A stretch of DNA of 64,000 nt, from NCBI RefSeq assembly GCF_040256745.1, contig NZ_CP138335.1:1302001-1366000 (forward strand), read 5' to 3'. Position numbers and translations under genes: made by a program. Shown here piece after piece: positions 28,662-56,113 of the stretch. Within the stretch, counting starts at the first letter, position 1. The number at the start of each line of letters is the position of its first letter. The stretch comes from Scrofimicrobium sp. R131 (lineage in GTDB: Bacteria; Actinomycetota; Actinomycetes; Actinomycetales; Actinomycetaceae). Under the pieces are notes generated by a model. That model had not been told where the DNA came from, ran no database searches, and saw only the letters and a list, made by a program, of their open reading frames with translations.

Positions 28662-29684
28662 CTAGTCGAGGGTCGGGGCGGGCCCGATACTGTCACGGGT
28701 CACAAACTTGGTGGGAACGGTGATTAGTTCAGCGCTCGGGGCGCTGCGGTGTTTGAGCTGGCTGATGAGGGCGCGGGCCGCTCGCACCCCGAGCATCTTG
28801 GCCGGCGGGGCAATTGAGGCCAAAGTTGGGGTGGTCAGGAACGCCGCGATCGAGTTGTCCACCCCCACCACCGAGACGTCGTTGGGGACGGTCATCCCGG
28901 CTCGGTGCACGAACTTCATGAAGCCGACCGCGACCAGGTCATTGAACCCAATCACCGCGCCGGTGCGCTGGTAGAACCACTGTTTGCCGGCTTCGGCCCC
29001 GCCCTCCAGGGAGGGGGCATTTGGTCCGATCCGACGAACCTGGAACCCCATTTCTTTGCCGATGGTGGAGATGGCCCGCCACCGAACCCCGTCGGCCCAC
29101 GAGGCCGTCGGACCCGACAGGTAGGTGACGCGCGTGTGACCGAACCGGGCCAGTTCTTCGAGTGCCTGGCGGACACCTCGATCGGTGTCGGTGATGACCG
29201 AGGGGATCCCGGCCATTTCCCGGTTGGCTGCCACCACCGGGCGCACCTTCACGATTTGGTTGATGGAGGAGTCGCTCATCCGGGCCGAGGCGAGGGCCAC
29301 CCCGTCCACCATGTTGAGGATGGCGTCCACCGCCTGGCGCTCACCAACCTCGTCCTCCTGCGTGTCCATCAGCAGGACGGTGTAGCCGTGCTGCATGGCT
29401 TCACTTTGGAAGCCCCGCATGATTTGGGCGTAGATCGGGTTGGTCACGTCGGCGACGACGAAGGCGAGGATGTGGTTGGCTTCTCCGCGTTCTCCCCGGG
29501 GAACCGGCTTGGAGCGGTAACCCAGGGCTTCAGCCACCTCCCGAATTCGCTGCCCAGTTTGGGCGTTGACCCGTCCGGGACGGGAGAATGCACGCGAGAC
29601 CGTGGAGGGGGCCACCCCCGCGGCCTCGGCCACATCGTAAATGGTCACCCGCCGATCGCCGTCTGATTCTGAACTATCACTCAT
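28662..29684 (-). CDS. LacI-family regulator of the glucuronide island
   Basis: A protein of about 340 residues with an N-terminal helix-turn-helix (VTIYDVAEAAGVAPSTVSRAFSRPGRVN, residues 14-41) and a sugar-binding C-terminal domain. The start at 29684 is chosen because GGTGAG lies upstream at a good distance; it overlaps the larC end by eight bases. It lies inside the operon, between larC and uxaC, so it is likely autoregulated. It may bind the TTGCCA/TGGCAA repeats found before uidA and before gnd. The inducer is unknown; a uronate or aldonate is likely. Confidence 0.9.
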   Translation of the reverse strand: MSDSSESDGDRRVTIYDVAEAAGVAPSTVSRAFSRPGRVNAQTGQRIREVAEALGYRSKPVPRGERGEANHILAFVVADVTNPIYAQIMRGFQSEAMQHGYTVLLMDTQEDEVGERQAVDAILNMVDGVALASARMSDSSINQIVKVRPVVAANREMAGIPSVITDTDRGVRQALEELARFGHTRVTYLSGPTASWADGVRWRAISTIGKEMGFQVRRIGPNAPSLEGGAEAGKQWFYQRTGAVIGFNDLVAVGFMKFVHRAGMTVPNDVSVVGVDNSIAAFLTTPTLASIAPPAKMLGVRAARALISQLKHRSAPSAELITVPTKFVTRDSIGPAPTLD

Positions 29685-31149
29685 TGATCTCACCACCTTG
29701 TGAGGCATCGCCCTCAGCGTCTTCGCTCAGGTCGGGGGCCGGCCAGGGGGCCCCGGGGTAAAGGCCTTCGCTCCACGCCTCCACGCCGGCGCGAGCAAGA
29801 ACAATTCGTTGCGGCTGATCCAACACGCGGGCCACCCGCTCCACGTCTACGAACTCGGCCGTGGCCTGCTGAATCGTAGCTCCCGGGCCGTCCCCGGAAA
29901 TCTTGATTCGAACCGGCTGCCCTTCCAGGTCGATCGTTCGCCAAATCCGCTGCAGGACCCGGCGATAGCCGGGGGCGGAGATCCGAATCCCAATCGTGGA
30001 CGTGTGGGTGACGAAAGCATCGGTAACCGCATCCAGGTGCTGCTGGTACGAGAGCGCGCTCAAAGTGTGTCCGGGTCGACCCTTCTTCATCACAATCGGG
30101 GTGAGCCAGACGTCGATCGCTCCCGCATCAAGCACCCGGTCGTAGACGGCGGGCCAGAGCCGGGGATCAAGGTCGTCCACATTGGCTTCGATCAGGTGCA
30201 CCGCCTGGACCGCCGGATCTGTCACCGGGGCTTCCACTACCGACGCGGTTCCCTTGGTTCCGATCAGGACGCGGACCAAGCCGGGCCGGTCGGCGCGGAT
30301 CCGGGTGCCGGCCCCGCGTCCTACCGACTCCACCAGCAGGGATGGGAGCGGCTCCACCGCCTGGCAGACGGTCCGGATCAGGGTCATCCCGGTCGGGGTG
30401 CAGAGCTCCCCCACCTCGGGGCCTCCCCCAGCTTCAATCTGCCAGCCGCGGGCCAGCTCGGCCACGGCCGGCGGCGGAACGGCCAGGGTCCCGTGGGAGG
30501 TTTGAATCTGCCCGGCCCCCACCGCCACGACGGAAGAGGTGGCCGAGGTGATGTTCAGCGTGCGCAGAGCCTCGCACACCCCGACAATGTCGCCGATAGA
30601 GTCGAGCGCACCCACCTCGTGAAAGTGAACCGAGTCGACGGTATCGCCGTGGGCACGCGCCTCGGCCTTTGCCAGGCGCCGAAAGGCGGCCCGAGCCCAG
30701 TCGCGAGTCTTTTCGGGCACCCCGGAGTGATCCAACATTTCCTCGATCTCGGCCAGGTGCCGGACGGGGGGCTCCGGCTCGTCCGCGATCACGTCCACCT
30801 TCAAAGCGGCCATGCCACCGCGCTTGACGGCCCTCGTCTGCAGATGCAACTTGCCGGGGGCCACTCGGTCCAGGACGGTGGCAATCGAACCCGCGTCCGC
30901 CCCCGCGTCGATCAGGGCCGCCAGCAGCATGTCGCCGGCCACCCCCTCGGAAGCGTCGATCCACAGGCTTCGTTCGGGAGTCTCCGGGGTGTTCAGCCAG
31001 ACCTGGCCCGGTTCAATCCGCCGGCCCGGCGCGACCGGCTCCCCGTCGGCATTGACGTGGTGATGGTGCGGTTCCGGCTGGGCACTCACTTCGGCCACCG
31101 CCGCAGCCAGGGTGGCTTCCAGCGATTCGGTATCAACTGCTTCAGTCAT
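29677..31149 (-). CDS. larC: Nickel insertion protein LarC (nickel-pincer cofactor synthesis)
   Basis: A 490-residue protein that inserts nickel into the pyridinium bis-thioacid nucleotide to finish the cofactor of LarA-type enzymes. Recognisable regions are LWIDASEGVAGDMLLAALIDAGAD, VHFHEVGALDSIGDIVGVC, ELCTPTGMTLIRT and EANVDDLDPRLW. A histidine run (PEPHHHHVNADGE) near residue 30 could hold nickel. The start at 31149 overlaps larB by eight bases. It is a single full-length gene, without the programmed frameshift known from Lactiplantibacillus. Confidence 0.92.
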   Translation of the reverse strand: MTEAVDTESLEATLAAAVAEVSAQPEPHHHHVNADGEPVAPGRRIEPGQVWLNTPETPERSLWIDASEGVAGDMLLAALIDAGADAGSIATVLDRVAPGKLHLQTRAVKRGGMAALKVDVIADEPEPPVRHLAEIEEMLDHSGVPEKTRDWARAAFRRLAKAEARAHGDTVDSVHFHEVGALDSIGDIVGVCEALRTLNITSATSSVVAVGAGQIQTSHGTLAVPPPAVAELARGWQIEAGGGPEVGELCTPTGMTLIRTVCQAVEPLPSLLVESVGRGAGTRIRADRPGLVRVLIGTKGTASVVEAPVTDPAVQAVHLIEANVDDLDPRLWPAVYDRVLDAGAIDVWLTPIVMKKGRPGHTLSALSYQQHLDAVTDAFVTHTSTIGIRISAPGYRRVLQRIWRTIDLEGQPVRIKISGDGPGATIQQATAEFVDVERVARVLDQPQRIVLARAGVEAWSEGLYPGAPWPAPDLSEDAEGDASQGGEINE

Positions 31150-31837
31150 TGGTTGGCTCCTTTCGGGCGGGGGCGCTAATTTGGGCGGCCAGGTGTCCGG
31201 CTCCGTAGCCGTTGTCGATGTTGACCACACTGACTCCGGGGGCGCAGGCATTGAGCATCGACAGCAGTGCGGCCACCCCGCCAAAGGAGGCACCGTAGCC
31301 CACGGAGGTGGGCACGCCGATCACGGGGGCCCGAACCAGACCCGCCACCACCGAGGCGAGGGCACCTTCCATCCCGGCGACGACCACCACGGCGGCGGCC
31401 TCTTCCAGCAGCCGGCGGTGCTTGAGGATCCGGTCCAGGTTGGCCACGCCCACGTCAACCAACTCGATTACGTCGCGGCCCAGGTAGCGGGCGGTAAGCG
31501 CGGCTTCGCGGGCCACCGGCAGATCGGAGGTGCCGGCGCAGGCCACCACCACCCGGCCCCCAACCGGCTCGGGGACGGCTCCGGGCCACGCAACCAGCTG
31601 TGCCTCCGGATAGTACTGGGCCCCGGGAAGCTGGGACAGGACCGCCTCAGCTCGGGCCCGGTCGGCCCGGGTGAACAGCACGTGGCCCAACTCGGCCACC
31701 CCCACCCCCTCCGACTTCAGGCGCCACAGGCGGGCGATCTCAGCGCACTGGTCGACCGTTTTGCCCTCCGTGAAGACGGCTTCGGCATAGCCGCGACGCT
31801 GGTAGCGGCCAAAGTCCAGATCGGCAATCGGCTGCAT
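31142..31837 (-). CDS. larB: LarB, nicotinate adenine dinucleotide carboxylase/hydrolase
   Basis: A 231-residue enzyme for the first step of nickel-pincer cofactor synthesis, adding CO2 to the pyridinium ring of nicotinic acid adenine dinucleotide. It resembles PurE in its C-terminal half: ACAGTSDLPVAREA, VAGMEGALASVVAGL and PVIGVPTSVGYGASFGGVAALLSMLNACAPG. The cysteine at about residue 198 fits the conserved active-site position. It lies between larE and larC with a two-base gap and an overlap respectively. Confidence 0.93.
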   Translation of the reverse strand: MQPIADLDFGRYQRRGYAEAVFTEGKTVDQCAEIARLWRLKSEGVGVAELGHVLFTRADRARAEAVLSQLPGAQYYPEAQLVAWPGAVPEPVGGRVVVACAGTSDLPVAREAALTARYLGRDVIELVDVGVANLDRILKHRRLLEEAAAVVVVAGMEGALASVVAGLVRAPVIGVPTSVGYGASFGGVAALLSMLNACAPGVSVVNIDNGYGAGHLAAQISAPARKEPTND

Positions 31838-31839
31838 CG

Positions 31840-32721
31840 CTAGGCCGGCCGTTTCATCAGCGACAGGGTGAAGGAACCCGACTGGATCCCACCCAGATCC
31901 AGGGTGGCGTAGCCAAAGCCAGCCGCCTTGACGCCTTCCAGCAAGCGGGCCCTCAGTTCCGGGTCGGCCAGCAGGCCAAACTCGGCCACCGGCACCTCAA
32001 TCCGGGCAATGGTGCCGTGGTGGCGGACGCGGCAGTCGGTGAATCCGGCCGCGAAGACGGCTTCTTCGGCCGCGTCGATGGCCGCCAACTTTTCGGCGGT
32101 GACCTCCTGGCCGTGGGGGATCCGGCTCGACAGGCAGGGGGTGGCCGGCTTGTCGGCGCTGATTAGCCCCATTGCATCCGCGATCGCTCTGATCTGAGCT
32201 TTGGTGGCCCCAACCAGGGGACGCAGCACCTGGTGCTCGCCGGCGGCTCGTTGGCCCGGACGGTCGGGGCGGCGCGAGTCGTCAGCATTTTCCCCGTAGG
32301 CCACGGCCGCGATCCCGGGCAAGTCCAGGTGGTCAAAGCGGGTGAACAGCTCGGACTTGCAGAAGTAGCACCGGTCGATGCCGTTGGCGACGTAGTTGGG
32401 ATCCTCGATTTCTTCGGTCTCGACCTCGATCACTTCCAGGCCCAGCTGTTCGGCCTGGCGGTGGGCGAAGGCCCGCTCCCGCCGGGCCAGCGACGGGGAG
32501 ATCCCCAGCAGCAACACGGTGCGGGCGCGACCGAGGGCCCGGGCGGTGAGGGCCGCCAGGACGGTTGAGTCCACCCCACCCGAGTAGGAAATCCCCAGGC
32601 GGGATCCGGGGGCCCGATCAACCACCTCGCCCACCTGGACCGCTACCGATTCGGCAATTTGCTCCAGCTCGGCGGGCAGTTCGACCCGCAGGTCGGCAGC
32701 CGGGTAGACCAGCGAACTCAT
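31840..32721 (-). CDS. larE: LarE, ATP-dependent sulfur transferase (three-cysteine type)
   Basis: A protein of about 293 residues of the PP-loop ATPase fold (SGGVDS at residues 47-52) that converts the two carboxylates of the cofactor precursor to thiocarboxylates. It has CYFC at 118-121 and Cys196 in TPCLSSR. The single-cysteine enzyme of Lactiplantibacillus gives up its own sulfur; the three-cysteine form is associated with a [4Fe-4S] cluster and possibly catalytic turnover. The ATG overlaps the beta-glucuronidase stop as ATGA, tying cofactor synthesis to glucuronide use. Confidence 0.92.
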   Translation of the reverse strand: MSSLVYPAADLRVELPAELEQIAESVAVQVGEVVDRAPGSRLGISYSGGVDSTVLAALTARALGRARTVLLLGISPSLARRERAFAHRQAEQLGLEVIEVETEEIEDPNYVANGIDRCYFCKSELFTRFDHLDLPGIAAVAYGENADDSRRPDRPGQRAAGEHQVLRPLVGATKAQIRAIADAMGLISADKPATPCLSSRIPHGQEVTAEKLAAIDAAEEAVFAAGFTDCRVRHHGTIARIEVPVAEFGLLADPELRARLLEGVKAAGFGYATLDLGGIQSGSFTLSLMKRPA

Positions 32722-34505
32722 CGCGACCCCTCTTTCCGCGCCTGCGCTTGCCACCGCTGCCGCACCGCGTAGGCCGCCGCCTTGGGTTCGCGTTCGCGGG
32801 TGAACATGCCCTTCTTGTTGCCACCCACCCGGATGATTCCGGGGGCGGTTTGGAAGTCGGCAAAGTTCCACATCTGTTCGCCCACCACCTGGTCGAACTC
32901 GTCAAACACCCGGTGGAACATGTCCAGCATGTCCACCTGGTACTCCTCCGACCAAGGCCGGTGAAACAGGTCCCGCAGGCCCGACAGCGTGTCCGGGCCG
33001 TACTCGGTGAACACGATCGGCTTTCCGGGGAACGCCTGTACCCAACCCGCCACCTCGGTTCGCAGATGCGCTTCCGCGTCGGCCAGGTTGCCCGTGTCGA
33101 CGTACCACCCGTAGTACCGATTCAGCATGATCACGTCGAACAGATCCATGCATTTTTCGAGGTGGGGCGGGGACAGCATCACGTTGACGTAGCTGACCGG
33201 GCGGGTGGGATCGGCGGCGCGGGCCACCTGGGCGAGCGGCTCAAAGTAGGCCCGCGACTCCTCGCTGGAGGACTCGGGCTCATTGGCAATCGACCACATG
33301 ACCACGCTCGGATGGTTCTTGTCGCGCGCAATCAGCTCTTGAATATGGCGGGCGTGCACGTCCCGGGTCCGGTCGTTGACAGTCTGCTCTGAGAACGTCA
33401 CCAACTGATCCTGGTTGCCAAACAGCCCCCCGGTCAGGCCCACATTCAGGCCGACTGCGGCCGTTTCGTCGATCAGGACGAAGCCCTCGCGGTCCGCGTA
33501 GTCCAGCACTTCCTCCGCGTAGGGGTAGTGGGAGGTGCGGAACGAGTTGGCCCCCTGCCACTTCATCAGCTCGAAGTCGTGGACCATGGACACGTCGTCG
33601 TGGGCTTTGCCCCGAATCGGGTTGTCTTCGTGGCGGCCGTAACCGCGGAAGTAGAACGGCTCGCCGTTGATCAAGAACTGGGAATCTTTTACTTCCACCG
33701 TCCGGATCCCAAACGGCTGCGGGTAGGTGTCCTCATCGGCCTGCACTTCCAGGGTATAGAGGTAGCCCCGACCCGGTTGCCATCGGTGAGCCTGCCTGAC
33801 CCGCACCTCCCCGGTCGAGCCGGTGGCCTCAGCTACGGCCACCCCGGCCTGATCCAGGATCCGCACGCTCACCTGCTCCGCCCCGGGTGCCTCCACCCGG
33901 TAGCGAACCAGGCCATCTTCCCCGGCCAGGTCGGTAGTGACGGTCACATCGACCACGCTTACCGGTGGGCGGGTGTACAGCAGGACCGACCGGTGAATCC
34001 CGGCGTAGTTGTAGAAGTCATGGAAGTAGCGCTGGACCTGGCGGCCACTGACGTCAGTCTGAATGAAACCCGGTGGCAACGTTTGCCAGGACAGTCGGTT
34101 GTCCACCGAGACCGTGACCGTGAACGGCTGGCCCGGGGTCACCAAGTCGGTAATGTCGGCCTCGAAGGGCAGGTAGCCACCGTCGTGGCGCACCACTTCG
34201 ATCCCGTCGACATACACCACGGCCGAATGGGTGACCGAGCCGAACCGGAGGATCAGGCGGTAGGACCCGAGCCGGCGCGGAGCCCGGGCCTCGCGCTGGT
34301 ACCAGGCCAAGCCCACCAGGTCGTGCACGGCGTTGTCGACCGTAATATCGTTGTACGAAGCCGGCACCGGCATTGACCTCGGTGCTGGCAATCCGGTGGC
34401 AAACCATCGGTCGGTATTTCCAAGGTCCGTTGGGTCAATCTGGAAATCCCAGAGGCCGTCCAAACTGTAGACGTCGCGCGAACACGACTGGCGAACTGAC
34501 AACAT
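32718..34505 (-). CDS. uidA: Beta-glucuronidase, GH2
   Basis: A 595-residue cytoplasmic glycosidase releasing D-glucuronate from beta-glucuronides. Catalytic residues are Glu409 (SIANEP) and Glu501 (VFTEYG). The Asn-Lys pair that recognises the glucuronate carboxylate is Asn563-Lys564 in GGNKKGMFTRE. An insertion around residues 355-375 after the stretch FVLIDETAAVGL corresponds to the loop-1 class able to process small drug and hormone glucuronides. The start at 34505 has AAGGAG at a good distance. It opens the seven-gene minus-strand operon, and no signal peptide is seen. Confidence 0.95.
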   Translation of the reverse strand: MLSVRQSCSRDVYSLDGLWDFQIDPTDLGNTDRWFATGLPAPRSMPVPASYNDITVDNAVHDLVGLAWYQREARAPRRLGSYRLILRFGSVTHSAVVYVDGIEVVRHDGGYLPFEADITDLVTPGQPFTVTVSVDNRLSWQTLPPGFIQTDVSGRQVQRYFHDFYNYAGIHRSVLLYTRPPVSVVDVTVTTDLAGEDGLVRYRVEAPGAEQVSVRILDQAGVAVAEATGSTGEVRVRQAHRWQPGRGYLYTLEVQADEDTYPQPFGIRTVEVKDSQFLINGEPFYFRGYGRHEDNPIRGKAHDDVSMVHDFELMKWQGANSFRTSHYPYAEEVLDYADREGFVLIDETAAVGLNVGLTGGLFGNQDQLVTFSEQTVNDRTRDVHARHIQELIARDKNHPSVVMWSIANEPESSSEESRAYFEPLAQVARAADPTRPVSYVNVMLSPPHLEKCMDLFDVIMLNRYYGWYVDTGNLADAEAHLRTEVAGWVQAFPGKPIVFTEYGPDTLSGLRDLFHRPWSEEYQVDMLDMFHRVFDEFDQVVGEQMWNFADFQTAPGIIRVGGNKKGMFTREREPKAAAYAVRQRWQAQARKEGSR

Positions 34506-34594
34506 AAAGGCTCCTTTACCACGCGGTGCCATCAGATGTGACGGGCAGCATCAACTAAAGATATTGCACCAACCGGACCGCCGGCTAGGGGCAA

Positions 34595-34669
34595 GTTGCC
34601 GGTTGTTGCCACAAGCTGAGCGTGGGCTATCAGGTTCCTTTCAGGCAAATTGAGACAACACTTGGCAAC
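34595..34669. promoter_or_regulatory. TTGCC/GGCAA half-sites between uidA and the divergent transporter
   Basis: The 286-base gap between the two divergent genes contains GTTGCC at 34595, GTTGCCA at 34605 (ten bases apart, same helical face) and the inverted TTGGCAAC at 34662-34669. The same half-sites are clustered before gnd. They are good candidates for operators of the island's LacI regulator; binding is inferred. Confidence 0.5.
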
Positions 34670-34791
34670 ATTGCAGTGGTATTTGCCCCCCGTGCGAGAT
34701 TGTAGCTACCAATCATTTGGGACCTTCAACGAAGATGAAGTTGCTGAGCTCGTTGGCGGCGCAAGGAAGCGGCCAACACAAAAGGAGAGAA

Positions 34792-36228
34792 ATGGCTAGG
34801 CAAATTACCGACGTCCGCCCCTTCGGTTGGCGTGACAAGATCGGCTACATGTTCGGGGACTTCGGAAACGACTTCTCCTTTATTCTGCAAATGATGTTCT
34901 TCATGGTGTTCTACACCGACGTGATGGGCATCAGCGCCGCCCACGTGGGGACCCTGTTCCTGGTCGCCCGGATCGTGGACGCGTTCACCGACGTCGGAAT
35001 GGGCCGCCTGGTCGACCTGCTGCCGCCGTCCAAGAATGGCCGTTTCCGGCCGTGGATCCTGCGAATCGCAATCCCGGTCGCCCTGGCCTCCACCGCCATG
35101 TACATGCCGTTCGTCGTCGATGCCAGCTACGGAGTCCGGCTCACCTACATGGTGATCACCTACGTCATCTGGGGCTCGGTCTTCTACACGATGATCAACA
35201 TCCCCTACGGCTCCATGGCCGCCGTGGTCTCGGACAAGCCCGAGCACCGCGCCTCCCTGTCCGTCTTCCGCTCGGTCGGCGCCCAGCTGGCCTTCCTGAT
35301 CATCTCGGCGATTCTGCCCCGGGTGGTCAACGTCGATAACCAGCTTGACGGTGGCCGAATGGCAATCGCGGCCGCGGTCTGTTCGATTCTGGCCGTCCTG
35401 TGCTACGTCGCCTGTTACTCGCTGGTGCGAGAACGGATCATCCTGGCCCCTAAGTCCAAGGAAGATCAGGTCTCCTTCGGTCAGATGCTCGGGACGCTGG
35501 GCCGCAACCGCCCACTGCTGGCCCTGGTTGGCGGCGCGCTCCTGTTCCTGATTGGCTCCCAGGTGGCCGGCACGACCACTGCCTACCTGTGGAAGGACTA
35601 CTTCGGCGCCTTCGAGATGATGTCGTGGGCACAGATCGTTTCCATTGCCCCCGTCTTCCTGATCTCGGTGATTGCCACCCGCATCTCCATGAAGTACGGC
35701 AAGAAGGAACTGTTGGCTACCGCCCTGACCTTCTCCGCCCTCCTCTGTATCGTGGCCTACTTCCTGCACATCACCAGCCCGATGGTCTTCATCATCATCT
35801 TCTTCTTCATCTCCATCGGGGTGGGCTTCTACAACATCATCGTCTGGGCCATCATTACCGACGTGCTTGACTACCAGGAAGTTGTCACCGGCGAACGCGA
35901 CGACGGCACCATTTACGCGATCTACTCGTGGTCGCGCAAGCTTGGCCAGGCCGTGGCCGGCTACGTCGTTGGTTGGGCCGTTTCCCTGGTTGGCTACTCG
36001 GCCGAGCTGGCCAAAGCCGGTGAACCCCAAGCCGACTCCACCCTCCAGGGCATCTACCTGCTGTTCCTGCTGGTTCCCGGGGTCCTCTACCTGCTGACCG
36101 CACTGGTGATGGGCTTTGCCTACCCGCTCAGCAAGAAGAAGGTGATGGAGAACTTCCACACCCTCCAGGAACGTCACGCCGTTGGCGACGCCGGCAGCGC
36201 TGCGACCTCCGGGGCGCACGGAGCCTAG
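34792..36228 (+). CDS. GPH-family glucuronide/sugar cation symporter
   Basis: A 478-residue transporter with 12 membrane segments of the glycoside-pentoside-hexuronide family. Typical motifs are YMFGDFGNDFSF at the start, RIVDAFTDVGMGRLVD and IWAIITDVLDYQEVVTGERDDGTIYAIYSWSRKLGQA. The ATG at 34792 follows AAAGGAG. It is divergent from beta-glucuronidase and should import intact glucuronides for that cytoplasmic enzyme, as UidB does. Members of this family carry various glycosides, so the exact substrate is inferred from context. Confidence 0.88.
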   Translation: MARQITDVRPFGWRDKIGYMFGDFGNDFSFILQMMFFMVFYTDVMGISAAHVGTLFLVARIVDAFTDVGMGRLVDLLPPSKNGRFRPWILRIAIPVALASTAMYMPFVVDASYGVRLTYMVITYVIWGSVFYTMINIPYGSMAAVVSDKPEHRASLSVFRSVGAQLAFLIISAILPRVVNVDNQLDGGRMAIAAAVCSILAVLCYVACYSLVRERIILAPKSKEDQVSFGQMLGTLGRNRPLLALVGGALLFLIGSQVAGTTTAYLWKDYFGAFEMMSWAQIVSIAPVFLISVIATRISMKYGKKELLATALTFSALLCIVAYFLHITSPMVFIIIFFFISIGVGFYNIIVWAIITDVLDYQEVVTGERDDGTIYAIYSWSRKLGQAVAGYVVGWAVSLVGYSAELAKAGEPQADSTLQGIYLLFLLVPGVLYLLTALVMGFAYPLSKKKVMENFHTLQERHAVGDAGSAATSGAHGA

Positions 36229-36332: not shown

Positions 36333-37640
36333 CTACTTGGGAAGGTTCCCTCGTTCACTCTCTAGCCGGTGCAGCAGCTCACCGGCCTGCGGAACCACCA
36401 GGGTGTCCGGGTCGGCGGCCAGCGCTTCAAAGTCGACCTCGGACGGATCCAGGTACCGCAGGTTCACGCTCTCAACCACCCCGCGCGGAATGGAGGTCGC
36501 CAGGGTGACGGTCACCCGATTGGTTTCCTCGCCGGTTTCCGCGTCGTAGGAGCCGATTCCCCGCAGGTGAGTGGAATGGGCCAGCTCGCCCCAGGGATGA
36601 GACTTGAACCGATCCCACTGCTTTACGAAGTAGTCGCGATTGTGATACCCAATGTTCAGCAGCCCGGGGTGCATGTGCGCGATCTCGGTGATGTGCGGGG
36701 CGTAGAGGATTAGCTCTCCCCCGTCGGCCACCACCGGCTCCAGCTTGTAGAACCCCTTGGCCGCGGTCCAGATGTCCTCGTACATGGTCGGCATGATCGA
36801 GACGACTCGCCGGTAGGCTTTCGGCACGTACTTGACGTGAACTTCGGCGGAGACGTCCGCGCAGGCCTCCCAGGACGAGCGGGCGTCGCCAAAGGAGACG
36901 AACTGCAGGTCCAGGCTGCCGGGTTTCACAATCATTCCGAGCAGAAGCTTTTCCGAGGGGACCAGCGCTGCCGCCGCATCGATCATTCGACGGACCGGCG
37001 TGATGCCGCGCGCCCCAATCATGTCAAAGGAGGTGATGAGCGCGCCCACCCAGTGGGACATGTCGATCACGTCGTGACCGGACAGGCCCGGGAACAGGTA
37101 CTTGTTTCCCCCGGAGATACCGACTACCTCGTGCGGCAGGACCGGTCCCAGGATCAGGGTGATATCGGTGTCCACCACCATCTTGTTGACCAGGACCGTC
37201 ATGTCTCGGTCGGTCAACCGGCCGCCGGAAAACTCGCCAATCTGGGCCCGATCAATCGTCCCCAGGTTGGCGAATGTATCCTCGTCGCGCCAGGCATGAT
37301 TGAAGATCTGCCAGCCGGGGTACTCCCGGCTGAACTCGCCCGGCTCGGTGCCCATCAGTTGGGCAATAGCCGCTTCACTCATGTCGTCGTGCGTCCCCAG
37401 GGCAATCACGACCCGAACGTCCTTCGGCCTGTCGCCGAGGGCATCGCGGATGTGCTTAGCCATCATCGCCACGGGGGCGTGGCGGGTCCCGTCGGGCACC
37501 ACCAGCGTGACCCGCTTGCCGTCAAAGTCGTACCGACCCAACTCCGTCAGCACAAACTGACGGATTTGGTCCTCACTGAGCACCGTGTCAGGACCGCCCA
37601 GCCGGGCTGCCTCGGGCACCCCGGGATACAGCTCGCTCAT
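36333..37640 (-). CDS. LarA-family nickel-pincer-dependent hydroxyacid epimerase/racemase
   Basis: A 435-residue homologue of lactate racemase LarA. With the ATG at 37640, the catalytic pattern is kept: His84 (GTHDD), His170 (LPHEVVG), Lys180 (GGNKYLFPG, the residue that binds the cofactor covalently) and His196 (DMSHW). His170, Lys180 and His196 are each four residues before His174, Lys184 and His200 of Lactiplantibacillus LarA. AAGAGG precedes the ATG. It shares an operon with a sugar kinase and gnd. The family includes a D-gluconate 2-epimerase, and I propose D-mannonate/D-gluconate as its substrate pair. Lactate racemase is unlikely here. Confidence 0.85.
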   Translation of the reverse strand: MSELYPGVPEAARLGGPDTVLSEDQIRQFVLTELGRYDFDGKRVTLVVPDGTRHAPVAMMAKHIRDALGDRPKDVRVVIALGTHDDMSEAAIAQLMGTEPGEFSREYPGWQIFNHAWRDEDTFANLGTIDRAQIGEFSGGRLTDRDMTVLVNKMVVDTDITLILGPVLPHEVVGISGGNKYLFPGLSGHDVIDMSHWVGALITSFDMIGARGITPVRRMIDAAAALVPSEKLLLGMIVKPGSLDLQFVSFGDARSSWEACADVSAEVHVKYVPKAYRRVVSIMPTMYEDIWTAAKGFYKLEPVVADGGELILYAPHITEIAHMHPGLLNIGYHNRDYFVKQWDRFKSHPWGELAHSTHLRGIGSYDAETGEETNRVTVTLATSIPRGVVESVNLRYLDPSEVDFEALAADPDTLVVPQAGELLHRLESERGNLPK

Positions 37641-37642
37641 GA

Positions 37643-38716
37643 TCACCTCTTAACTCGGGCGTTTCCCGCCCAAATGGACCAGACCTGCTCTTCGTCGGCC
37701 GGGGTGGCGTAGTCGGCCACCGTGGTGGCCGCCAGAGCGCCGGTAGCCCAGCCGAACTCCATGCACCGCCGAGCTTCCCAGCCCTGCAAGATGCCGTAGA
37801 GGACGCCTCCGACCGAACCGTCCCCGCCGCCAATTCGGTCCATCACTTCGATGTCGCGCAGGTCGGCGACATTGAACTCGCCGTCATGCCAGAGGATCAT
37901 GCCCCACTTGTGCCGGTTGGCAGAGACCACCTCGCGCAGCGACGTCCCAATGTAGTGCGCCTGCGGGTAGGCCTGGGAGATCCGCGTGATCATCTCCTGG
38001 AAGTTCTGGATCTTGTCCGAAATAGATTCGCCCCCGGCTTCGGGACCCTGGATCCCCAGGCAAAGCTGGAAGTCCTCTTCGTTGCCGTACAGCACGTCGC
38101 AGTGGGAGGCGATCTCATGGAAGGCAGCCGCCAGCTCGTCTTCCCGTCCGGCCCAGAAAGAAGCCCGATAGTTCAGGTCAAAGGAGACGCGGGTCCCGTG
38201 TTCCTTGGCGCGGCGAGCCAGGTCGACGCACAGCTGTGACGTCGAGGGGGACAGCGCGGCAATCAACCCGGACAGGTGCAAGATCTTGACCCCGTCTTCG
38301 GCGAAGAGCCGGTCCAGGTCAAAGTCGGCGGCCGACAGGGTCAGCCCCACCTCCCCGGCGCGGTCGTTCCACACTCGGGGGCCGCGGCCGCCAAACCCGG
38401 AATCAGCGATGTTGAACTGGTGGCGATAGCCCCAGGCATCCCCCTGGGCCAACTCGGGCCCCTCGTAGGCCATCCCGCGTGAACGCAGGTTGGCCCGAAT
38501 CAGGTTGGAAATGGGCGAGCCGGCCACGAAGTTGGTCAGCACTTTGACGGGTTCACCCAGGGACGAGGCGATTGAGGCCACGTTGGTTTCCGCTGAAGTC
38601 ACGTGCAGCAGGAACCGGTCAGCCGTATGCACGGGAGCCCGATTCTCGGGGGTGATCCGCACACCCATCGAGGTGGGGACCACCAGTGACCAGCGAGCGT
38701 CGGCGCGAAGTTCCAC
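37643..38716 (-). CDS. PfkB-family sugar or sugar-acid kinase (KdgK-like)
   Basis: A 357-residue kinase of the ribokinase superfamily. The substrate/nucleotide region SFDLNYRASFW resembles 2-keto-3-deoxygluconate kinases. The catalytic motif reads DRIGGGDGSVGG instead of the usual DTTGAGDAF, keeping the catalytic Asp. It starts at GTG 38716, with GGAGG seven bases upstream, overlapping nothing of gnd except spacing of a few bases around its stop. Between gnd and a LarA homologue, gluconate is a likelier substrate than ketodeoxygluconate, because 6-phosphogluconate is what the neighbouring enzyme needs. This is an inference. Confidence 0.82.
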   Translation of the reverse strand: MELRADARWSLVVPTSMGVRITPENRAPVHTADRFLLHVTSAETNVASIASSLGEPVKVLTNFVAGSPISNLIRANLRSRGMAYEGPELAQGDAWGYRHQFNIADSGFGGRGPRVWNDRAGEVGLTLSAADFDLDRLFAEDGVKILHLSGLIAALSPSTSQLCVDLARRAKEHGTRVSFDLNYRASFWAGREDELAAAFHEIASHCDVLYGNEEDFQLCLGIQGPEAGGESISDKIQNFQEMITRISQAYPQAHYIGTSLREVVSANRHKWGMILWHDGEFNVADLRDIEVMDRIGGGDGSVGGVLYGILQGWEARRCMEFGWATGALAATTVADYATPADEEQVWSIWAGNARVKR

Positions 38717-38718
38717 GA

Positions 38719-40167
38719 CTAGGCCTCCACTTCCGGACGCCCCGGCTCCGCCCACAGGGTGTGGAACGAGCCTTCCTTGTCGATTCGCCGGTAGGTGTGG
38801 GCGCCGAAGAAGTCGCGTTGGCCCTGAATCAGAGCGGCCGGCAACCGTTCGGCCCGAACGCCGTCGTAGTAGGCCAGGGAAGAGCTAAACACCGGAGTGG
38901 GAGCGCCGTGCAGGGCCGCGGCCGCCACCAGTCGGCGCCAGTGCGGCAACGCCTCGACGATCTTGGCGTAGAAGTAGTCGTCGCCAATCAGCAGGGGCAG
39001 TTCGGGGTTCTTTTCGAACGCCTTGGTGATCTCACCGAGGAAAGCGGCCCGGATAATGCAGCCACCCCGCCAGATGCGGGCCATGTCGCCCAGGTTGATC
39101 TCCCAGCCGTACTCGGCGGCGGCCGCCTGAATCTCGTTGAATCCCTGCGAGTAGGCCACCACCTTGGAAGCGTAAAGTGCCTGGCGAACGTCCTCGATGA
39201 ATGCTTCCGGATCGGTCACATTCCAGTCCTCGGCTTCAGCGGCGAACTGCCGGGCAGCAGCGCGTTGAGCCGGGGAGGACGACAGGCCGCGAGCAAAGGT
39301 GGCCTCGCCGATCCCGGTGACGGGCACGCCCAGGTCCAAAGCTGTTTGGGTGGTCCAGGCACCGGTCCCCTTCTGGCCGGCAGCGTCGACAATCAGGTCC
39401 ACCAGCGGGGTGTCCCCGTCGAGTTGCCGGAGTACCTCGACCGAGATCTCCATCAGGTAGGAGTCCAGGTCGCCGCGGTTCCACTCCGCAAAAATGTCGG
39501 CAATCTGTGCCGGGGTCAGCCCGAGCGCGCGCCGCAACAGGTCGTAGGCCTCGCCAATCACCTGCATGTCGGCGTACTCAATCCCGTTGTGAACCATCTT
39601 GACGAAGTGGCCCGCACCGTCGGCCCCGACGTGGGTGCAGCAGGGCTCCCCGTCCACGTGCGCCGAAATCGACTCGAGCATCGGGCCGAGCCGGTCGTAG
39701 GACTCGGGTGAGCCACCCGGCATGATCGAGGGCCCCCACAGGGCCCCCTCTTCCCCACCGGAAACGCCGCAACCGACGAAGTGCAGTCCCCGTTCACGCA
39801 GGGATGCTTCGCGCCGGCGCGTGTCGGTGAACAGAGAGTTGCCGCAGTCGACAATGATGTCTCCCTCATCCATCCGCGCCGCCAGCTCCTCGATCACCGC
39901 GTCGGTGGCCTGGCCGGCCTTGACCATCACGATCGCACAGCGCGGCCGGGACAGTGCGGCAACGAAATCGTCCATTGATTCGCACGGAATGAAACCGGTT
40001 TCCGCACCGTACTTTTCCATCACGGATTCGGTGCGAGCTGGGGTCCGGTTATGGACCGCCACTTTGTGGCCGTGCCGAGCGAAGTTACGGGCCAGATTTG
40101 AGCCCATCACTCCCATCCCGGTGACGCCAATATCTGCACTACCTGCCTGGGGGGCGGGAAAAGTCAT
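38719..40167 (-). CDS. gnd: 6-phosphogluconate dehydrogenase (decarboxylating)
   Basis: A 482-residue enzyme converting 6-phosphogluconate to ribulose-5-phosphate and CO2. The nucleotide motif is VTGMGVMGSNLARNFARHGHKVAVHNRTPART, where NRT points to NADP. Further landmarks are VSGGEEGALWGPSIMPGG and the catalytic lysine in HFVKMVHNGIEY. The length fits the long homodimeric form. It is the first gene of an operon with the PfkB kinase and the LarA homologue, and its control region carries the TTGCCA repeats seen before beta-glucuronidase. Confidence 0.96.
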   Translation of the reverse strand: MTFPAPQAGSADIGVTGMGVMGSNLARNFARHGHKVAVHNRTPARTESVMEKYGAETGFIPCESMDDFVAALSRPRCAIVMVKAGQATDAVIEELAARMDEGDIIVDCGNSLFTDTRRREASLRERGLHFVGCGVSGGEEGALWGPSIMPGGSPESYDRLGPMLESISAHVDGEPCCTHVGADGAGHFVKMVHNGIEYADMQVIGEAYDLLRRALGLTPAQIADIFAEWNRGDLDSYLMEISVEVLRQLDGDTPLVDLIVDAAGQKGTGAWTTQTALDLGVPVTGIGEATFARGLSSSPAQRAAARQFAAEAEDWNVTDPEAFIEDVRQALYASKVVAYSQGFNEIQAAAAEYGWEINLGDMARIWRGGCIIRAAFLGEITKAFEKNPELPLLIGDDYFYAKIVEALPHWRRLVAAAALHGAPTPVFSSSLAYYDGVRAERLPAALIQGQRDFFGAHTYRRIDKEGSFHTLWAEPGRPEVEA

Positions 40168-40234: not shown

Positions 40235-40287
40235 GTTGCCACATTTTGCCACTTGCCAACCGGTTGCCATTGGCAACATCCGGCAAC
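40235..40287. promoter_or_regulatory. Operator cluster between gnd and the divergent GH3 gene
   Basis: GTTGCCATTGGCAAC at 40263-40277 is an inverted repeat of seven-base arms around one base. Additional TTGCCA copies start at 40236, 40246 and 40253, and an inverted GGCAAC lies at 40282-40287. The spacing of 7, 10 and 11 bases suggests several proteins bound side by side. It sits in the 205-base gap between the divergent gnd and GH3 operons and shares half-sites with the uidA promoter. Confidence 0.6.
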
Positions 40288-40372: not shown

Positions 40373-42145
40373 ATGGTTGATTTGACTGCCACCCCTTTCA
40401 ACTTGGACGAGGACGCGGTTCGCTGGGTCCGAGAGACCATCGCCCAGATGAGCGTGGATGAGAAGATCGGACAGCTCTTCGTCAACATGGGCGCAGAGCG
40501 AACCGAAGAATATCTGACCGGAGTCCTGGACAACTACCATATCGGGGCGGTCCGCTACAATCCCGGCACGGCCGCGGAAGTCTGGGAACAGAACCATATT
40601 CTGCAGACCAAGTCGAAGATCCCCCTGCTAATTGCCGCCAACACCGAAGCCGGTGGCAACGGCGCCTGCACCGACGGGACCTACGTCGGATTTGAGGTCA
40701 AAATTGGCGCCACCAACGATCCGAAGTGGGCCTACGAGATGGGTCGCGTTTCCGGAGTGGAAGCGTCCGCCATCGGCTGCAACTGGTCCTTCGCCCCGAT
40801 CGTGGACATCATGCGCAACTGGCGCAACCCCATCATTTCCAACCGTTCCTGGGGCGGGGACCCGGACCTGGTGCTGGAGATGTCCCGCGCCTACATGCGC
40901 GGGATCATGGAGTCGGGCATCCTGCCCGCGGCCAAGCACTTCCCCGGGGATGGTATCGACGAACGCGACCAGCACCTGTCCGCCTCGATCAACTCGTACA
41001 GCTGCGAGGAGTGGGACCAGACTTTCGGCCGGGTTTACCAGGGACTGATTGACGAGGGGCTGCCCTCACTGATGGTCGGTCACATCATGTTGCCGGCCTA
41101 TCAGCAGCGCTTCAACCCGGATCTGACCCCCGACGACCTGCTGCCGGCCACCCTGTCGAAGGAAATCCTCACCGACCTGCTGCGCGGACAGATGGGCTTC
41201 AACGGCGTGGTCGTCACCGATGCCTCCCACATGGTCGGCCTGACCGGTGCCATGGCACGCCGGGACCTGTTGCCAACCGCGATTGCCGCCGGTTGCGACC
41301 TGTTCCTGTTCTTCAATGATCCCGACGAGGACTTCGCCTGGATGAAGCAGGGCTACGAGAACGGTGTCATCACCGAGGAGCGCCTCCAGGAAGCCCTGGA
41401 GCGGATCCTGGGGTTGAAAGCCCGGCTCGGGCTGCACCGGACCCCGCGCGAACAGATCCTGCCCCCGAAGGAGGAGGCGCTGGCCCGGGTCGGTCTGCCC
41501 GAGAACAAGCAGTTGGCGATCGAGGTCACCGATGCGGCCGTGACCCTGGTCAAAGCCAAGCAGCCCGAGGTGCTTCCGCTGAGCCCGGACCGGTTCCCCC
41601 GCGTCCTCGTGGTGCCCGTCTCCGGCCCAATCAACCCGATTTCGGGAGCGTTTGGCGGGGGTGGCGCAGCCGAGCACCCCGCGATCAAGACCGCCCGTCT
41701 GCTCGAAGAGCGCGGGTACCAGGTGACGATCCACGAGTCCCTGTTCGACAAGCTGACCAAGATGAGCCGGGAAGAACAGGCCGATGCCGTGCGAAACGTG
41801 TACGCCTCGAAAGCTCCGATCGCCCAGATTACCGACAACTACGACCTGGTGGTCCTCGTCGGCAAAATCGACGGCATGATGCAGCCCACCGAGCGGGTCA
41901 TGTGGCCGGCCACAAAGGGAACGGTGGACATCCCCTGGTACGTCCACGAGGTCCCCACCATCTACGTGTCGATGGCCTCGCCCTACGATCTGGTGGATGT
42001 GCCGCAGGTGAAAACCTACATCAACGCCTACGACGACCGTGACTTCACCATCACCGCTGTGGTCGACAAACTCGAAGGCAAGTCGCAGTTCCGCGGGGTC
42101 TCCCCCGTTGACGCCTTCTGCGGCAAGCCGGACACTCAGATCTAG
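40373..42145 (+). CDS. GH3 glycoside hydrolase (NagZ-like catalytic motif)
   Basis: A 590-residue cytoplasmic glycosidase with a TIM-barrel domain to about residue 350 and a C-terminal alpha/beta domain. The motif AKHFPGDGIDERDQH (187-201) resembles the Asp-x-His signature of N-acetylglucosaminidases of this family, and the nucleophile is Asp283 in VVTDASHM. AAGGAGG precedes the ATG at a fair distance. It starts the six-gene plus-strand cassette and is divergent from gnd. A beta-N-acetylhexosaminidase is plausible, but other exo-beta-glycosidases cannot be excluded. Confidence 0.85.
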   Translation: MVDLTATPFNLDEDAVRWVRETIAQMSVDEKIGQLFVNMGAERTEEYLTGVLDNYHIGAVRYNPGTAAEVWEQNHILQTKSKIPLLIAANTEAGGNGACTDGTYVGFEVKIGATNDPKWAYEMGRVSGVEASAIGCNWSFAPIVDIMRNWRNPIISNRSWGGDPDLVLEMSRAYMRGIMESGILPAAKHFPGDGIDERDQHLSASINSYSCEEWDQTFGRVYQGLIDEGLPSLMVGHIMLPAYQQRFNPDLTPDDLLPATLSKEILTDLLRGQMGFNGVVVTDASHMVGLTGAMARRDLLPTAIAAGCDLFLFFNDPDEDFAWMKQGYENGVITEERLQEALERILGLKARLGLHRTPREQILPPKEEALARVGLPENKQLAIEVTDAAVTLVKAKQPEVLPLSPDRFPRVLVVPVSGPINPISGAFGGGGAAEHPAIKTARLLEERGYQVTIHESLFDKLTKMSREEQADAVRNVYASKAPIAQITDNYDLVVLVGKIDGMMQPTERVMWPATKGTVDIPWYVHEVPTIYVSMASPYDLVDVPQVKTYINAYDDRDFTITAVVDKLEGKSQFRGVSPVDAFCGKPDTQI

Positions 42146-42153
42146 GGGGAACT

Positions 42154-43020
42154 GTGGACTTTCAACCCAGCGCCGATTTTTTCGTCGGGATCGACTCGGA
42201 CGGGTGCGCGATGGACGCGATGGACATCAAGCATCAGGAATGTTTCACTCCCGCCTACATCAAGTATTTTGACCTGCAGGCCGCCTCGACCCTGGTCCGG
42301 GAAACCGCACTGTTCGTGAACCTGCATTCCACCACTCGGGGGCAGAACCGATGGGTCGCCCTGGCCCGGCTGTTCGAACTGTTGAAGCAGCGTCCCGAGG
42401 TGCTCGAACGCGGGGTCACCCTGCCGGAGGGCACCGAACTGCAGAAGTTCCTCGACTCGGACTTCCCCCGATCGGATGCGGGGATCGCCGCCTTTGCCGC
42501 GGAGAACCCGTCCGCGGAGATCGAGCAATGCATCGAGTGGGGCCACGGCGTCAACCGCCTGATCGAATGGATGGTCCACGGCTGCGCTCCTTTCCCCGGG
42601 GCACGCGAGGCGATCCAGGCGATGCAGGGCAAGGTCGACTGCATGACGGTCTCAGCCACCCCGATCGCGGCGTTGGAGCGCGAGTGGGCCGAGCACGATC
42701 TGGCTCGGTACATGCGGGTAATTGCCGGCCAGGAAATGGGCTCGAAAGCCCAGCACGTCCAGCAGGCCGCTAAGGGACGCTACCCCGATGATCACATCAT
42801 GCTGATTGGTGACGCCCCGGGCGACCGCGACTCCGCCTTCTCAGAGGGAGTCCTCTTCTACCCGATCAATCCGGGGGGAGAAGCCGAATCCTGGCGCCGT
42901 TTCCGCGAGGAAGCCCTCGACCGGTTCCTGGACGGCACCTACCGGGGCGCCTATCAGGACTCGCTGGTGGCCGAGTTTGAAGCTCTCCTTCCCGCCAACC
43001 CACCGTGGAAGACAATCTGA
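42154..43020 (+). CDS. HAD-superfamily hydrolase
   Basis: A 288-residue cytoplasmic protein starting with GTG after AGGGGG. The N-terminal motif is GIDSDGCAMD, a DxD phosphatase-type nucleophile site, and the C-terminal acidic motif is LIGDAPGDRDSAF. The cap region between them is large (about residues 30-150). It is nine bases after the GH3 gene and is followed by a TGATG overlap, so it belongs to the cassette. Phosphatase activity on a sugar phosphate is likely, but the substrate is unknown. Confidence 0.8.
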   Translation: MDFQPSADFFVGIDSDGCAMDAMDIKHQECFTPAYIKYFDLQAASTLVRETALFVNLHSTTRGQNRWVALARLFELLKQRPEVLERGVTLPEGTELQKFLDSDFPRSDAGIAAFAAENPSAEIEQCIEWGHGVNRLIEWMVHGCAPFPGAREAIQAMQGKVDCMTVSATPIAALEREWAEHDLARYMRVIAGQEMGSKAQHVQQAAKGRYPDDHIMLIGDAPGDRDSAFSEGVLFYPINPGGEAESWRRFREEALDRFLDGTYRGAYQDSLVAEFEALLPANPPWKTI

Positions 43021-43832
43021 TGTGGCGACTGACCGGATTTGCTGACGAGGCTGCCCCCGAACCAGCCGACCAGATTGCGTTGCTGCAGCGGCTGGGCCTG
43101 TCCCACGTGGAGTTGCGCTCCGCTTGGTTCACCAAGGTGCTGGATCTCGATTCCACTCAATTGGCGAACCTGCAGGCACAGTTCCAGGACGGGGGCATCT
43201 CCCTCTCAATGCTGGGGACGGACCTGGGGAAGATTCCGATTCAGGCCGACTTCGGTCCCCACCTGGACCGGACCAAGCGGGCAATGGAGGTGGCGGATCA
43301 GTTCGGCACCGACCGGATCCGAACGTTCTCTTTCTTCCTGCCCCCGGGTGAGGATCCCGCCCAATTTCGCCACCAGGTCCTGGACCGGCTGTCCGCCATG
43401 GTGGAGATCGCGGGCGACGCGAACAAGACCCTGATGCACGAAAATGAAAAAGAGATCTACGGCGACGTCCCCTCCCGGGTGACCGAACTGGCCGAGGCGC
43501 TGGATCCACGCCACTTTGAGCTGATCTTCGACCCGGCCAACTACGTCCAGTGCGGGGTCTCCCCGATGGACGCCTATCCCCTGGCGCGCACGACCTACAT
43601 TCATATCAAAGACGCCCGGGCCGACGACCACTCGGTCGTTCCTGCCGGCGAAGGCGACGGTCAGATCCCCCAGTTGCTGGAGGCGCTGGACCGGGACGGC
43701 TACGACGGGTTTTTCTCGATCGAACCACACCTGGGCGACTTCGACGCTTTCGGTGGCCTCTGCGGTCCGGAACTGTGGGAAAAGGCGTTCCGCTCCTTTG
43801 TCGAGTTGCTAGGGGACCGCCCATGGGCCTGA
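43020..43832 (+). CDS. Sugar phosphate isomerase/epimerase, TIM barrel
   Basis: A 270-residue xylose-isomerase-like TIM barrel. Metal ligands are visible as Glu in LMHENEKEIYGD, Asp in LIFDPANY, His in YIHIKDA and Glu in SIEPHLGD. The ATG at 43020 overlaps the previous stop as TGATG; a GTG at 43005 is an alternative start. Two such proteins and two Gfo/Idh/MocA oxidoreductases in one cassette suggest oxidation-assisted epimerisation or cleavage of a sugar. Confidence 0.82.
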   Translation: MWRLTGFADEAAPEPADQIALLQRLGLSHVELRSAWFTKVLDLDSTQLANLQAQFQDGGISLSMLGTDLGKIPIQADFGPHLDRTKRAMEVADQFGTDRIRTFSFFLPPGEDPAQFRHQVLDRLSAMVEIAGDANKTLMHENEKEIYGDVPSRVTELAEALDPRHFELIFDPANYVQCGVSPMDAYPLARTTYIHIKDARADDHSVVPAGEGDGQIPQLLEALDRDGYDGFFSIEPHLGDFDAFGGLCGPELWEKAFRSFVELLGDRPWA

Positions 43833-44833
43833 GGGCCGCCATCATCGGCTGCGGCGACATCCACGTGGTGCACCGCGCCGCGCTGGAGCGCCTACCCGAA
43901 GTGGACCTGGTGGCGGTGGCGGAGGTGGAGCCCTCCCGCTGCCCCTCCGACGTGCGAGCCTACGCCGACTACCGGGAGCTGCTGGAGCAGGAACGGCCCG
44001 ACGTGGTCCACATCTGCACCCCGCACGACCAGCACGTGGAGCCGGCGCTGGCGGCAGTAAGCCACGGAGTGCACGTGGTGTTGGAAAAGCCGCTGGCAGC
44101 GCACCTGCCGGCCGCCGAGCGCCTGGTCGAGTGCATGGTGGAGCGCCAGCAACCCGGGGTGAAGGTGGCCCTCTGCTATCAGAATCGCTACAACCTCTCC
44201 TACGCAAAAGCGAAAGAGCTGATCGACTCGGGCCGACTGGGCGAGGTTTACGGCTCCGTCGCCGCGGTGCCGTGGAAACGAACCCGCGACTACTACCAGT
44301 CCCGCCCCTGGCGCGGATCCTGGCGGCAAAGCGGTGGGGGCGTCCTGATCAACCAGGCCATCCATACGATCGACGCGCTTTCGTGGTTTTTCGGCGGGAT
44401 TGAAACGGTCTCCGGCATGGCCACCAGGACCGAGTTTGCCGACCTGATCGAGGTGGAGGACACCGCGTTTGCGCGGTTCACCCACCCGAACGGTCAGGTG
44501 AGCCAGTTCTTCGCCACCGTCACCGGACCGGTCCAGGCTCCCGTCAGCATCGACATTTTCGCCGAGCACGCCAACCTGCACATTCAAGATGGCCTCCTGG
44601 TCCAGTGGAAGGGCCGGCCGGAAGAGTACTACCCCGAGCGCCAACTCGGCGGTGAGGGCCGGGACTACTGGGGTGTCTCCCACGAACTGCTGATCGCCGA
44701 CTTCTATCGGCAGCTAGATCAACCGGAGCCATTCTGGCTCGGACCCGCTCAGGGCATCGAGGCCCTGCAGGTCATCAAACAAATCCAGGCCCAGTCACCC
44801 GAGTGGGCCGCACTAGTGCAAGTGGAGGGGTAG
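43823..44833 (+). CDS. Gfo/Idh/MocA-family oxidoreductase
   Basis: A 336-residue NAD(P)-dependent enzyme. The Rossmann motif is IIGCGDIHVVHRAALERLP, the conserved EKP is in HVVLEKPLAAH, and the catalytic region is GGGVLINQAIHTIDAL. It overlaps the preceding isomerase gene by ten bases. Members oxidise or reduce a sugar carbon, often making 3-keto intermediates. The substrate is unknown. Confidence 0.88.
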   Translation: MGLRAAIIGCGDIHVVHRAALERLPEVDLVAVAEVEPSRCPSDVRAYADYRELLEQERPDVVHICTPHDQHVEPALAAVSHGVHVVLEKPLAAHLPAAERLVECMVERQQPGVKVALCYQNRYNLSYAKAKELIDSGRLGEVYGSVAAVPWKRTRDYYQSRPWRGSWRQSGGGVLINQAIHTIDALSWFFGGIETVSGMATRTEFADLIEVEDTAFARFTHPNGQVSQFFATVTGPVQAPVSIDIFAEHANLHIQDGLLVQWKGRPEEYYPERQLGGEGRDYWGVSHELLIADFYRQLDQPEPFWLGPAQGIEALQVIKQIQAQSPEWAALVQVEG

Positions 44834-44836
44834 GCA

Positions 44837-45991: not shown

Positions 45992-45999
45992 GGAGAATC

Positions 46000-56084: not shown

Positions 56085-56113
56085 TTTTTCGCTCCTCTTT
56101 GAGTCTTTACTTG

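Follow-up and report, generated by a model that had tools for sequence, protein, structure and literature searches.

A LarA homolog of Scrofimicrobium sp. R131 predicted to epimerize D-mannonate to D-gluconate within a glucuronide-catabolic gene cluster

Introduction

The locus considered here, in a 64,000-nucleotide stretch of DNA from Scrofimicrobium sp. R131 (the window), encodes a LarA homolog beside a sugar kinase and a 6-phosphogluconate dehydrogenase, which raises the question of the acid on which this protein acts. The initial annotation had proposed an aldonate 2-epimerase with D-mannonate as its substrate. The enzyme class and the epimerization of mannonate and gluconate by GntE enzymes are already known (PMC7583248; PMC11770544), and a route from mannonate through gluconate to the pentose phosphate pathway was proposed earlier for Thermotoga (Rodionova et al., 2012, as cited in PMC6978723).

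Gene cluster and operon structure

The genes and sites of the cluster are listed below in window coordinates.

25786-27195, minus strand: uxuB-like polyol/mannonate dehydrogenase, predicted fructuronate reductase (Mannitol_dh domains)
27192-28619, minus strand: uxaC, glucuronate isomerase (NF002794, 533 bits, cut-off 387)
28662-29708, minus strand: LacI-family regulator (LacI and Peripla_BP_3)
29677-31293, minus strand: larC, nickel insertase (TIGR00299 and NF052512, both above cut-off)
31142-31837, minus strand: larB, synthesis of the nickel-pincer-nucleotide (NPN) cofactor (NF033503, 256 bits, cut-off 175)
31840-32871, minus strand: larE, sulfur insertase in the synthesis of the NPN cofactor (TIGR00268, 235 bits, cut-off 150)
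32718-34532, minus strand: uidA, beta-glucuronidase, GH2 (NF007538, 842 bits, cut-off 544)
34596-34611, plus strand: operator-like motif TTGCCGGTTGTTGCCA, between uidA and the symporter gene
34717-36228, plus strand: GPH-family glucuronide/hexuronide:cation symporter (TIGR00792, 334 bits, cut-off 231)
36333-37646, minus strand: larA homolog (hexonate-type LarAH), predicted D-mannonate/D-gluconate 2-epimerase (Lar_N; NF052594, 159 bits, cut-off 500)
37643-38716, minus strand: PfkB-family kinase, KDG-kinase-like, 357 residues from GTG 38716 (PfkB; 2afb)
38719-40167, minus strand: gnd, decarboxylating 6-phosphogluconate dehydrogenase (NF006765, 716 bits, cut-off 413)
40271-40286, minus strand: operator-like motif TTGCCGGATGTTGCCA, upstream of gnd

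The products of uidA, larE, larB, larC, uxaC, gnd and the symporter gene all score above curated cut-offs. The uxuB-like product gives a near tie between fructuronate reductase and D-arabinitol dehydrogenase models, both below cut-off, and could reduce another ketose acid. The sugar kinase and 6-phosphogluconate dehydrogenase of the initial annotation are genuine neighbors (PfkB; NF006765): gnd, the kinase gene and larA form one operon with gaps of 2 bp (gnd TAG-TC-GTG kinase and kinase TGA-TC-ATG larA), the start of the kinase being set by alignment with homologs. That annotation had not extended to the other genes found within about 11 kb, namely larE, larB and larC, uidA, the GPH symporter gene, lacI, uxaC and the uxuB-like gene, and the presence of the cofactor and uronate genes in the cluster makes the idea of a mannonate epimerase much stronger.

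The whole nickel-pincer cofactor pathway (larB, larC and larE) lies within the cluster of larA. LarC1 and LarC2 are fused in a single open frame, so that a full LarC needs no frameshift; the true start of larC is probably inside the listed open reading frame. The LarE sequence contains an SGGVDS motif and a CXXC...C motif of the [4Fe-4S] type, the latter being the motif of the T. maritima [4Fe-4S] LarE, unlike the sacrificial LarE of L. plantarum (PMC9283937).

The operator-like motif, TTGCCGGWTGTTGCCA, occurs twice in the window and in none of the shuffled sequences, a count that is by itself no test since the motif was derived from these two sites. One site precedes uidA by 64 bp and the symporter gene by 121 bp; the other precedes gnd by about 105 bp. 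Among relatives within the clade, every site of the looser form TTGCC-N3-TGTTGCC that was found lies outside mapped genes, and all but one have gnd, uidA/gph or larE at most 225 bp downstream. The LacI protein may be what binds this motif, but this is a guess.

An Rfam scan of 22-48 kb of the window returned one tRNA and nothing else. The adjoining region (40373-46845) encodes a GH3 glycosidase, two xylose-isomerase-like TIM barrels, two Gfo/Idh/MocA-like oxidoreductases and, at 42154-43020, a 288-residue protein without a hit in Pfam or NCBIfam; these genes look like a separate glycoside-oxidation cluster.

Sequence and predicted structure of LarA

The larA frame is intact and encodes 437 residues from GTG 37646 or 435 residues from ATG 37640. 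Its product matches Pfam Lar_N (E-value 4 × 10−21) and is the sole Lar_N match in the 2.22 Mb single-contig genome. In the GTG numbering, Asp52, Arg55, His86, His172, Glu173, Val174, Lys182, His198, Trp293 and Lys297 are invariant in 19 homologs with identities down to 28%. The Lar_N domain, the catalytic Asp/His/His/Lys set and the NPN-binding Arg/Lys/His set that define the LarA superfamily are thus all present. The initial annotation, numbering correctly from ATG 37640, had described His84, His170, Lys180 and His196 as an intact catalytic set, and the 10- and 16-residue spacings of the last three indeed equal those of His174, Lys184 and His200 in LarA. Two irregularities were seen among homologs: the LarA frame of one genome (G083:C196:540-1799) has one in-frame TAG, and the LarA match at L040:2947-4206 also includes a stop, which may be merely the terminal codon.

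The loop following the second catalytic histidine carries Glu173-Val174, and Trp293 is present on helix 11. An E-V or E-S loop together with a helix-11 tryptophan is the signature of LarAH groups 18, 19 and 20 (PMC7583248). The best NCBIfam model is NF052594, the LarAH18 hexonate equivalog, but the 159 bits obtained are below its cut-off of 500 and the protein is therefore not assigned to LarAH18. The malate racemase model gives 90 bits and the lactate racemase model (NF033504) 54 bits against a cut-off of 460.

The closest sequence of solved structure is T. maritima GntE2, a LarAH20 protein (4nar; E-value 1 × 10−51), compared with an E-value of 2 × 10−6 for lactate racemase. An AlphaFold2 model of LarA (pLDDT 93.5) retrieved 4nar first in a structure search (TM-score 0.85, r.m.s.d. 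2.8), with malate and lactate racemases after it. GntE2 and the window's LarA share the catalytic and NPN-binding residues, the loop glutamate, the helix-11 tryptophan and a uronate/gluconate gene context; they differ in sequence (about 29% identity) and in the loop, which is E-S in GntE2 and E-V here.

In a phylogenetic tree built without C. glutamicum GntE1, hexonate-type LarAH proteins are separated from the racemases of lactate and malate; the outgroups are partial sequences on long branches. The window's LarA groups with the hexonate types, the outcome expected from the initial proposal. A C. pilosum protein (L028), the closest of the Corynebacterium homologs compared and 53% identical, falls in the same clade on a branch at an unresolved fork at the clade base. 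The window's LarA presumably belongs to group 19, the GntE1 group; GntE1 is, by description, also actinobacterial, with the hexonate signature and a uronic acid gene context (PMC7583248).

Missing enzymes and the PfkB kinase

Absences from the genome were assessed by profile searches, with an estimated completeness of 100%. Neither UxuA (mannonate dehydratase) nor KDPG aldolase was found in profile searches of the complete genome; T. maritima, which has both, served as the control. No ManD-type dehydratase was found in the genome. A hidden UxuA substitute of this enolase-superfamily type was considered and rejected: MenC, above its own cut-off, accounts for the one strong match to MR_MLE_C, and a second match is weak (30 bits). 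No gluconokinase of the GntK (TIGR01313) or FGGY (TIGR01314) type scores above cut-off in the genome. The FGGY kinase at 54522-56129 was rejected for this role, as ribulokinase and xylulokinase models score first and the gluconokinase model gives 220 bits, compared with 338-368 bits for LarA-linked FGGY kinases in relatives.

The PfkB kinase has the KDG kinase 2afb as its closest solved relative (E-value 8 × 10−32), and its gene sits between gnd and larA in the window's clade. In many other loci an FGGY kinase gene is found beside uxuB; six of the seven such kinases tested score best on the gluconokinase model, although under its strict cut-off. In two loci (L053 and L074) a PfkB protein 74% identical to that of the window takes the place of the FGGY kinase. 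The window's protein has S-A-E-T-N where aldolase-linked paralogs (L056 and L062) have G-G-E-Y-N. The PfkB protein is predicted to be a former KDG kinase that now phosphorylates gluconate, with mannonate as the alternative substrate given the activities of L. suebicus (PMC6978723).

Replacement of UxuA across genomes

UxaC is present in 53 of the 131 genomes of the family. A hexonate-type LarAH accompanies it in all 22 genomes that lack UxuA and in two of the 31 that have UxuA (Fisher p = 6 × 10−13). Because the genomes are related, genera with a single state were also counted, giving six of six against one of 12 (p = 4 × 10−4); two genera hold both states. In these counts, weak UxuA matches of 18-29 bits in seven genomes (G021, G076, G077, G091, G119, G126 and a second match in G032) were taken for TIM barrels of other kinds, and G129, with matches of 58.8 and 31.7 bits split across contig ends, was scored as having UxuA.

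Ten of the 22 genomes without UxuA have the window's LarA type: the genome of the window is counted among them, and in the others the identity is 59-84%. The remaining 12 have only a second LarAH type that is 27-31% identical to it. The second type scores above the LarAH18 cut-off in both representatives tested and adjoins uxaC, uxuB and an FGGY kinase gene in several genomes, which supports the guess made in PMC7583248 of a hexonate substrate for group 18. In six of the 12 genomes that rely on it alone, larA is not beside uxaC, which counts against the mannonate epimerase reading.

A true UxuA occurs in only one (Nakamurella lactea) of 57 genomes with a close homolog of the window's LarA. Among the window and 80 homologous loci, which were picked by LarA similarity and include many close relatives and some short loci, uxaC is near larA in 54, a uxuB-like gene in 49, gnd in 29 and UxuA in none.

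A sister genome (G071, locus L092) has gnd, pfkB, larE, larB, lacI, uxaC and the uxuB-like gene in order, without larA there; its only LarA homolog is of the LarAH18 type and lies about 40 kb away, a layout that looks like the substitution of one type for the other. Four sampled members of the window's own genus (g1; G015, G045, G066 and G084), as opposed to G000, have no UxaC, UxuA or LarA homolog, and the cluster is therefore an accessory one within the genus, either acquired here or lost from the other members. The G+C content of the cluster (0.650) is close to that of the window (0.637).

Proposed pathway

In the proposed pathway, glucuronides would be imported by the GPH symporter and hydrolyzed by UidA to release D-glucuronate, which UxaC would isomerize to D-fructuronate and the UxuB-like reductase would convert to D-mannonate. 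LarA, carrying NPN cofactor made by LarE, LarB and LarC of the same cluster, would then abstract the hydride from C2 and deliver it back to the opposite face, yielding D-gluconate. Phosphorylation by the PfkB kinase would give 6-phosphogluconate, from which Gnd would form ribulose 5-phosphate and CO2. This route would stand in for the standard branch, whose enzymes are UxuA, KdgK and KDPG aldolase; the genome lacks the first and the last of these. The sequence, fold, tree, pathway genes and the absence and replacement of UxuA agree in making an aldonate 2-epimerase acting on D-mannonate, as first proposed, the best-supported reading. We infer, with a probability of about 0.8, that larA encodes an NPN-dependent aldonate C2-epimerase converting D-mannonate to D-gluconate in a glucuronide-catabolic regulon.

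Alternative functions

The KM of C. glutamicum GntE1 for D-mannonate is 120 mM, and the authors of that work question whether this acid is the native substrate (PMC7583248), which counts against D-mannonate here; because this KM is very high, a related aldonate or a phosphorylated form could also be the substrate of the window's LarA. The order of the last two enzymes might be reversed, with the PfkB kinase phosphorylating mannonate and LarA epimerizing 6-phosphomannonate to 6-phosphogluconate. Extracts of Lactobacillus suebicus contain just such mannonate kinase and 6-phosphomannonate 2-epimerase activities, for which the genes are not known, and a gntE homolog is among the proteins expressed (PMC6978723); the lack of a recognized gluconokinase in the genome is also in favor of this order, which would in addition explain why GntE1 has a high KM when mannonate is not phosphorylated. 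However, free D-mannonate is a substrate of GntE1, GntE2 and LarAH15 (PMC7583248; PMC11770544) and the kinase linked to the same LarA type in relatives is a gluconokinase-like FGGY protein, so that the reversed order appears unlikely.

That the epimerase acts on a different acid from uronate catabolism, either an aldarate or a hexonate other than mannonate, is rather improbable. The GntE1 kinetics are in favor of this reading, and the conversion of D-glucarate to D-mannarate was proposed by the same authors (PMC7583248), but gnd requires 6-phosphogluconate, consistent with gluconate, and the exchange of UxuA and hexonate-type LarAH in genomes with UxaC best fits a step that consumes mannonate. 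The LarA fold and the promiscuity of some LarA enzymes (PMC11770544) would be compatible with a racemase of lactate, malate or a hydrophobic 2-hydroxy acid lying in a sugar acid cluster by chance. The loop is E-V rather than F-F or Y-K, the lactate and malate models reach 54-90 bits compared with 159 bits for the hexonate model, and both fold and tree separate these enzymes from the window's LarA; such a chance placement is hardly credible, and lactate racemase in particular was rejected because of the signature, scores and fold.

Comparison with known systems

The cluster shares with the canonical (isomerase) glucuronate pathway the UxaC and UxuB-like steps, the glucuronidase and the symporter, but differs in the absence of UxuA and KDPG aldolase and in an exit through gluconate and Gnd. 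T. maritima, unlike Scrofimicrobium sp. R131, has UxuA and KDPG aldolase in addition to GntE2. The LarAH18 proteins (NF052594, putative hexonate epimerase), for which no published activity was found in the literature surveyed, resemble the window's LarA in adjoining uxaC, uxuB and FGGY gluconokinase-like genes in sister genera and in likewise replacing UxuA, but are 28-31% identical to it and form a separate clade.

No report of a systematic exchange of UxuA for LarA or of a PfkB gluconokinase was found in a search that took in little of the subscription literature. On the best reading, the new elements are therefore the systematic exchange of UxuA for LarA homologs, a like role predicted for group 18 and a KDG-kinase-like PfkB protein that would act in place of gluconokinase.

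Conclusions

The evidence leans somewhat towards a general pattern in which Propionibacteriaceae, like many actinobacteria besides, regularly have a nickel-dependent epimerase in place of UxuA and thereby direct hexuronate carbon into the pentose phosphate pathway, with the gluconokinase step taken over by a former PfkB KDG kinase in the window's clade. A large set of LarA homologs would thereby gain a physiological role in glucuronide breakdown, and the assignment of group 18 as hexonate epimerases would be supported. The findings also suggest candidate gene types for the conversion of mannonate to 6-phosphogluconate in L. suebicus, which had been left without genes. With LarA using nickel as predicted, glucuronide utilization in these bacteria would become nickel-dependent.
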